From Adhaeribacter soli (GTDB lineage: Bacteria; Bacteroidota; Bacteroidia; Cytophagales; Hymenobacteraceae), in the NCBI RefSeq assembly GCF_008727925.1, contig NZ_VTWT01000002.1:124001-188000 (forward strand): a stretch of 64,000 nucleotides of DNA, given 5' to 3'. The notes under the pieces are model-generated. The model did no database searches. It was not told the DNA's origin and saw nothing but the letters and a program-made list of their open reading frames with translations. Shown one piece after another: positions 50,881-51,282 of this stretch. The first letter of the stretch is position 1. Each line of letters starts with the position of its first letter. The translations under genes and the position numbers were made by a program.

Positions 50881-51113
50881 TTTGTAGCGTAGGGTTTAAA
50901 CCCAATGCCGTCAACTTAAGGCAAAAGGGCTCTTCCAGACATCTGTGTCTGGAAGCAATCTGCCGGGGACATCTGTGTCCCCGTATGAATAAACGCGGAC
51001 ATGGATGTCCGCACCAGAGTAAGTTTCAGACACAGATGTCTGAAACAGCGATTATTATTAATTCATAATCCTTAAGTCTGTAGCATTGGGTTTAAACCCT
51101 ACGCTACAGACTT
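50881..51113. repeat. Nested palindrome array (four gacatctgtgtc palindromes framed by tttaaaccc arms)
   Basis: Outer arms: about 50881-50911 and 51078-51113 (gtagcgtagggtttaaaccc and ctgtagcattgggtttaaac). Inside are perfect or near-perfect palindromes at 50932-50955, 50964-50983, 50995-51012 and 51023-51046, all built on gacat.tgtgtc-like cores. No protein gene occurs in 50857-51338. Confidence 0.8.
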
Positions 51114-51159: not shown

Positions 51160-51282
51160 TCGTCATCTCGACGTCAGGAGAGATCTCCGGAATAAGGCAG
51201 CAAGTCTGAATAATTGGTAGTACCAACCTAATGAGATTAGGCTCTGCCGAACCTTCGGTTCCTTACTCCGTTCGAGATGAAC
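51160..51282. repeat. Inverted repeat (cgtcatctcgacg...ttcgagatgaac)
   Basis: Short, imperfect arms on the theme of the tcatctcgac/gttcgagatga wording seen in other intergenic elements. Confidence 0.5.

Follow-up and report, generated by a model that had tools for sequence, protein, structure and literature searches.

Between rsgA and an SDR gene, the 64-kb stretch of DNA analysed here (the window) carries a block (50881-51113) that is made of three layers: a module of four hairpins, an inverted-repeat frame around that module, and a split 28-bp palindrome. A first-pass annotation, made from the letters alone, had placed four palindromes with differing outer stems at 50932-50955, 50964-50983, 50995-51012 and 51023-51046, and on reading the sequence we find both the positions and the differing stems exactly as it described them. 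The core on which the palindromes were said to be built, GACATCTGTGTC, is exact in three of them (once on the minus strand) but carries two mismatches in the third palindrome, and the inverted arms said to frame them correspond to a 39-nt inverted repeat (50883-50921 and 51070-51108) with 87% complementarity. Two of the hairpins face one direction and two the other, which makes the module a set of two inverted pairs; on the minus strand, the order runs GCT, 10-bp hairpin, spacer, CTG, 7-bp hairpin, spacer, 8-bp hairpin, CAG, spacer, 10-bp hairpin, AGC. The features are as follows, with CT counts referring to the 43 aligned modules described below.

50884-50900, plus strand: left half of the split 28-bp palindrome GTAGCGTAGGGTTTAAACCCTACGCTAC, ending in TTTAAA (from genome half-match counts)
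50895-50900, no strand: TTTAAA, left copy of an apparent 6-bp target duplication (sequence reading; other frame copies are alike)
50901-50921, plus strand: left terminal inverted repeat of the frame, CCCAATGCCGTCAACTTAAGG (inverted-repeat and pattern searches)
50929-51049, minus strand: four-hairpin module, 121 bp (the alignment orientation, GCTGTTTC... first, is the minus strand)
50929-50931, plus strand: GCT foot of the first hairpin (CT in 43 of 43)
50932-50955, plus strand: hairpin 1, 10-bp stem, loop TCTG (sequence reading and covariation, as for all four hairpins)
50960-50962, plus strand: CTG foot of the second hairpin (CT in 42 of 43)
50964-50983, plus strand: hairpin 2, 8-bp stem, loop TCTG
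50995-51012, minus strand: hairpin 3, opposite orientation, 7-bp stem
51015-51017, minus strand: CTG foot of the third hairpin (CT in 40 of 43)
51023-51046, minus strand: hairpin 4, opposite orientation, 10-bp stem
51047-51049, minus strand: GCT foot of the fourth hairpin (CT in 43 of 43)
51070-51090, minus strand: right terminal inverted repeat of the frame, plus-strand letters CCTTAAGTCTGTAGCATTGGG (compared with other copies)
51091-51096, no strand: TTTAAA, right copy of the apparent 6-bp target duplication (sequence reading; other frame copies)
51091-51107, minus strand: right half of the split 28-bp palindrome (sequence reading; half-match counts)

Immediately downstream, 51160-51280 of the window holds a further stretch resembling an inverted repeat (CGTCATCTCGA ... 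TTCGAGATGAAC); a diverged counterpart is present in a second genome of the same genus (G001).

Within the window alone, the number of core matches with up to two mismatches is unremarkable, at four against a shuffled mean of 1.46 and with at least four in 8 of 100 shuffles. The palindrome block as such is beyond chance, because the hairpin pattern GACATCNNTGTC occurs 53+53 times in the genome that holds the window (the source genome: G000, 4.97 Mb, 16 contigs) against 0 and 2 times for the reversed pattern, and because the DNA fold of the 121-nt module reaches z = -9.4. A search for the core elsewhere, which the first-pass annotation had proposed, is thus answered by these pattern counts; the block itself has 78 matches in the source genome, on both strands at E <= 0.001, and none in a plasmid collection. 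We aligned 28 of the 30 full-length modules of the source genome, leaving aside L013 (internal deletion), L033 (short) and all partial copies, together with 15 modules from other genomes (43 rows). Covariation across these copies, another of the proposed checks, is strong, with stems changing on both sides and pairing kept. The 35 pairs of the four hairpins are paired in 96.0% of 1503 cells and double-sided changes occur in 16 of the 35 pairs; the 108 double-change cells compare with a shuffled mean of 28.6 (0 of 500 shuffles as high), in a comparison that is not a probability, as the structure comes from the very sequences aligned and these are related to one another. As a control, shifting the partners by 1-3 columns leaves 4 to 10 such cells. 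Foot and loop are nearly invariant and the stem sequence varies provided that pairing holds: of the 172 feet, 168 (43, 40, 42 and 43 of 43) have CT 10 nt ahead of the loop, a constant distance even though the stems measure 10, 7, 8 and 10 pairs, the feet mostly read GCTG, nCTG or GCTC, and nearly all loops start with TC.

The first-pass annotation had also suggested that the block could fold into a multi-stem RNA, that is, that it is transcribed as a small RNA or 3' untranslated element whose hairpins are kept for RNA function. The 233-nt block does fold at -128 kcal/mol as RNA (z = -16.2), and such a role would accommodate the strong covariation and the position of the modules: of 27 copies examined, 24 follow at least one gene (in 14 co-directional and 10 convergent contexts), the remaining 3 contexts being divergent. 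However, stable RNA folding is a property of any inverted repeat irrespective of its role, and the minimum-energy RNA fold consists chiefly of a single long hairpin, which the inverted arms close, in place of four stems in a row. As DNA, the minimum-energy fold of the window module pairs hairpins 1 and 4 together (-38.2 kcal/mol) and the separate four hairpins are seen largely in the centroid (-34). The single-strand minimum-energy folds bring distant parts of the block together instead of forming four separate hairpins. An Rfam gathering search of the window returned 0 matches, and promoter and terminator scans were at chance: each yielded a single candidate site, where shuffled sequence gives a mean of 1.2 for promoters and 0.7 for terminators. 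Departures from Watson-Crick pairing in the module alignment comprise 29 G/T, 28 A/C and 32 other cells; the nearly equal G/T and A/C counts are what DNA that can be read from both strands should give, in what is a weak test, since module orientation is not transcription orientation and the direction of transcription is uncontrolled. Modules are moreover found with and without the frame, and they flank the gene of a single-strand DNA transposase (see below). The multi-stem RNA is left without support by these searches, counts and long-range folds, and we regard a structured RNA as unlikely; strong covariation need not signify an RNA, and the block resembles mobile DNA more than it does a gene for a small RNA. 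The annotation had reckoned that a lack of transcription and of conserved structure in other copies would leave a mobile repeat cluster: a mobile repeat cluster is the best reading, yet, contrary to that clause, its structure is conserved.

A search for the PF01797 family found seven genes in the source genome. One of them, at G000:C12:56405-56950, is a REP-associated tyrosine transposase (RAYT) gene flanked on both sides by a full module; a second RAYT, 90% identical to the C12 one, has a half module upstream. RAYTs with 79, 78 and 76% identity in three other genomes (G032, G017 and G022, respectively) adjoin modules or half modules, and in G002 the RAYT match is split into two overlapping pieces and accompanied by one module; the same-genus genome G001 has no such RAYT match, no module match and no hairpin-pattern match. 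Across 59 genomes, the source included, module matches occur in each of the four genomes whose RAYT reaches 75% identity and in 4 of the 55 others (G002, G012, G027, G036), a co-occurrence with Fisher p = 1.5e-4 at a cut-off that was set after the hits had been seen. The exception G012 combines nine module matches with no close RAYT, its only match having 44% identity and a stop codon. The exact 14-nt pattern occurs in 12 of the 59 genomes, single matches being no more than the reversed control yields in others.

The C12 protein (181 aa) matches PF01797 at E = 2.4e-8 and carries NHLH, FWQ and YIHQNP motifs. By sequence it finds the solved ISDra2 transposases at E of about 8e-4 and, weakly (E = 0.063), 4er8, which is a RAYT bound to a REP hairpin; a structural model of the relative from Pontibacter indicus (76% identical; mean pLDDT 73, with three low stretches) has 4er8 as its top match in the PDB (E = 4.4e-7, TM 0.63/0.69, 17% identity). 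Among 21 aligned RAYT relatives the H-x-H and WQ motifs are invariant and the Y motif varies in some (YLHQNP, YIHDNP, YIHMNP, YIHQNS). Subclass 2.6, in the accessible text of PMC6006769, comprises Y1 transposases with NH[LIV]H, WQ and YIH[QN]NP motifs and a mean length of 179 aa, whose genes are flanked by atypical structures that have no GT[AG]G and had to be inspected manually. The C12 protein has such motifs and such a length, and its gene is flanked by non-GTAG structures with copies elsewhere in the genome; by motifs, length and flanking structures, the RAYT of the module is best read as probably subclass 2.6-like. The available portions of the literature further state that in E. coli the RAYT cleaves at a CT adjoining the REP and that RAYTs make contact with either the REP loop or irregularities in the stem (PMC8266576), and that in subclass 2.5 foot plus stem length is kept within a narrow range (PMC6006769). 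Because of these parallels with the E. coli RAYT and subclass 2.5, the CT of the module is likely to be both foot and cleavage site.

The association extends well beyond close relatives. A scan of genome contigs that used the RAYT as query yielded 41 loci, which belong to Pontibacter, Rufibacter, Hymenobacter, Larkinella, Ancylomarina and others, four of which are titled Chlorobiota and the remainder of which we take, by title or taxonomy, to be Bacteroidota; 29 loci of relatives and 4 of the source genome bring the set to 74. A GCT-footed hairpin lies within 400 bp of the RAYT in 45 of the 74 loci, against 2 of 74 for control windows 1000-1400 bp away, and in a scan of all 64 trinucleotide feet GCT scores 120, where the median over the 64 is 9. 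Such a hairpin is absent within 400 bp in 29 loci, some of which have another hairpin type; 23 of the 29 RAYTs fall below 55% identity, the other six being L170, whose upstream flank is missing from the sequence, L153, L156, L165, L175 and L177. Loop size, assigned for 42 RAYTs as a triloop such as GGATTTGTAATCC or a tetraloop such as GGACATCTGTGTCC, follows RAYT phylogeny: it changes twice on the tree, against a shuffled mean of 9.9 and with 0 of 500 shuffles as low, on a quick tree in which 16 of 39 inner branches have support below 80 and in which included near relatives add to the clustering. Three proteins below 140 residues and 29 with mixed loops or no classified hairpin were omitted from that tree. 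The source genome holds both hairpin types, the C12 RAYTs being found with GGACATC and a second-type RAYT at L046 (G000:C2:40277), 70% identical to the C12 RAYT, with triloop hairpins (among them GGATTTGTAATCC). The coexistence of these RAYTs, each kind with its own hairpins, in a single genome offers a natural specificity test.

The arms around the module belong to another repeat. They are not specific to the block and are halves of a separate 28-bp palindrome, half-matches to which (<=2 mismatches) number 72+75 in the source genome and 25+24 in G001, with intact solo GTAGCGTAGGGTTTAAACCCTACGCTAC palindromes also present in the source genome. Between these halves and the module lies the frame, for which a pattern search limited to end pairs within 330 bp listed 18 pairs; three (L136, L257, L265) were dropped as another inverted repeat caught by the loose pattern, and 15 copies remain. 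The frame measures 92 to 197 bp between outer motif ends. Identical 6-bp outer flanks (TTTAAA, TCGCGA and once TTTAGG) are found in 10 of the 15, and 5, 4, 4, 3 and 0 of 6 flank positions match in the other five; the window copy, which the pattern missed on account of the patch in its right repeat and which we inspected directly, has TTTAAA at either end. In 8 of the 15 frames (at least 11 of 17 positions) and, by reading, in the window copy, the duplication is the centre of a palindrome made up of the two flanks. Besides solo GTAGCGTAGGGTTTAAACCCTACGCTAC, a second intact target, the perfect palindrome GGACAGGTCGCGACCTGTCC, occurs at 24 places in the source genome (e.g. C15:8439 and C15:8636), 23 of them exact and one with a mismatch; four pairs of these places are spaced 150-230 bp. 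As the flanks are palindromic around the duplication and intact targets exist, the arms of the first-pass annotation are best read as the two probable halves of a palindromic repeat opened by insertion. The reading of TTTAAA as a target duplication is complicated in that target and duplicate are both palindromic, and the duplication stays an apparent one. We also considered the arms as part of the module element, which does not agree with the 28-bp palindrome often standing alone and occurring in the module-free G001, and as the REP of another RAYT, for which no match with up to three mismatches was found in the sequence stretches around three further RAYT-like genes.

MITEs are non-autonomous inverted-repeat elements, and the frame shares with them its terminal inverted repeats and, in several copies, a target duplication; from its length it would have no coding capacity. 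Four frames have other interiors (L039, L289, L291, L292), those of L291 and L292 being bounded by inverted repeat-like ends (GTCATTCTGAGC... and ...TTCGGGATGACC). Ten of the 28 aligned modules of the source genome sit in a frame with both ends recognisable and 18 are solo, some of them with frame remnants. On a tree of the 28, the ten framed modules fall in two groups among the others (6 changes against 8.4 when shuffled, 24 of 500 shuffles as low, a weak signal), which weakly suggests that the module was taken up by the frame more than once. In the right inverted repeat of the window copy, positions 51077-51083 read TCTGTAG where other copies have TTGACGG or near it, and this 7-nt patch equals the reverse complement of 51104-51110; it may have been left by a replication template switch. 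The annotation had remarked that the palindromes look as if independently formed or corrected, and it is correction that fits this patch.

Solo copies of the 28-bp palindrome in the source genome (e.g. L136:1501, L241:380, L264:360, L259:365) often form the centre of a longer locus-specific palindrome. A palindromic extension of at least 5 bp is present at 35 of 53 such places, against 1.65% for shuffled flanks, the 53 being those in the retrieved sequence stretches and including five that are halves of framed copies; by eye, several of the extended palindromes resemble intrinsic terminators with a T-run. Solo palindromes may have inserted at the tips of hairpins already present, or may have acquired their palindromic flanks later. 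Of eight palindrome sites searched for in G001, seven were compared by eye. Two have the palindrome at the same place there, with different, fully paired arms at L241 and poorly paired arms at L258; the counterpart of L264 is a related terminator-like hairpin, and at four of the seven sites there is none in the G001 stretch examined. The flank of L254 (G000:C13:166300-167100) contains tandem GAACAAC repeats with many matches in G001. At the locus of the block itself, inspection by eye found arms, frame and module all absent from the rsgA-SDR interval of G001 and from three further relatives with an SDR gene beside rsgA, an arrangement present in 5 of 30 loci, the source genome included.

The nested repeats raise the question of whether the palindromes are passive, that is, whether the copies are passengers of the frame and their paired changes a product of replication template-switch correction, with no recognition by a RAYT. 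Template-switch correction of imperfect palindromes could indeed yield part of the paired changes without selection, and the patch in the window copy, the ten modules in a recognisable frame and the family of 28-bp palindromes with locus-specific palindromic flanks are all in keeping with passive copies. Yet most aligned modules of the source genome are labelled solo, if some with frame remnants, and other genera have the module though the palindrome of the arms is absent or nearly absent there; template switching, furthermore, accounts neither for a CT at fixed distance nor for the agreement of loop size with RAYT phylogeny, and we consider passive palindromes quite improbable. A host function that keeps REP-like hairpins in place, as protein-binding or nucleoid sites or as transcript-end signals, agrees with 0 of 27 copies overlapping an ORF (at least 90 aa, simple ORF caller) and with host roles of REPs proposed in the accessible part of PMC3733652, but is very unlikely given a same-genus genome devoid of any module or hairpin-pattern match and hairpins that, by eye, have no T-run after them in the window copy.

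Our preferred explanation, which we hold to be highly probable, is that the four palindromes are the REP array of a Bacteroidota RAYT of the subclass 2.6 kind, situated inside a frame within a third repeat. A structure kept by paired changes, a constant foot and loop, linkage to RAYT genes and a nested anatomy are its observed elements, and mobilisation of the module by the RAYT is its likely mechanism. Studied RAYT relatives act on single-stranded DNA. The hairpins would form in single-stranded DNA such as the lagging-strand template, and the RAYT would bind them as single-stranded DNA, probably recognising foot and loop rather than stem sequence; it may then cut at CT and move or copy modules into intergenic sites. 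The frame would be a second non-autonomous element that carries the module between its CCCAATGCCGTCAACTTAAGG ends, presumably inserted at the dyad centre of the 28-bp palindrome with duplication of TTTAAA. A broader proposal, which we advance tentatively as plausible rather than favoured, is that subclass 2.6 RAYTs read their REPs by geometry, and that in this lineage an unrelated non-autonomous element targeting palindrome centres acquired the array, which would thereby have another way to spread. An enzyme that reads the loop letters and a CT placed 10 nt from the loop, whatever the stem sequence, could serve four different hairpins in a fixed array. The rule of a CT foot 10 nt from a clade-specific loop, with free stem letters, would render such hairpins searchable across the phylum and predicts what the RAYT enzyme recognises.

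In the wide sense the hairpins are REPs, being multicopy, intergenic, RAYT-linked and of conserved foot; their feet are not the GTAG or GTGG of canonical REPs. The open-literature texts consulted contain no description of the module or of the foot-and-loop rule, and Table S1 of PMC6006769 may list some of the sequences. The rule is what appears to be new here, as the accessible text found calls the hairpins of the Bacteroidota RAYT group only 'atypical' (PMC6006769). The frame resembles MITEs in its short terminal inverted repeats, exchangeable interior and apparent 6-bp target duplication, and differs in often sitting at the dyad centre of other palindromic repeats and in that no matching transposase was identified among the frames with end pairs within 330 bp. 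Compared with subclass 2.6 (Bertels group 5) as presented in the consulted text of PMC6006769, the RAYT system agrees in its occurrence in Bacteroidota, in a protein of 181 against a mean of 179 aa with NHLH, WQ and YIHQNP, and in a hairpin-flanked gene with copies of the hairpins elsewhere in the genome and no GT[AG]G foot. It differs in that the structures are called weaker there, against stems of 7-10 bp with a CT foot at 10 nt here, and in that the module consists of four hairpins with TCNN loops, where that text gives no rule for foot, loop or stem. With subclass 2.5 REPs, according to the same partial source (PMC6006769), it shares a foot plus stem of narrow range, in which a shorter stem goes with a foot further from it, whereas the foot is CT(G) rather than GTAG and the RAYT motifs differ. 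Finally, the two inverted pairs of REPs in each module recall the REPINs and BIMEs of E. coli and Pseudomonas, which the available text (PMC6006769, PMC8266576) describes as inverted hairpin pairs with a conserved 5' foot, intergenic and next to a RAYT gene; unlike these, the module combines four hairpins in fixed order, with different stems of variable sequence and CT in place of GTAG.
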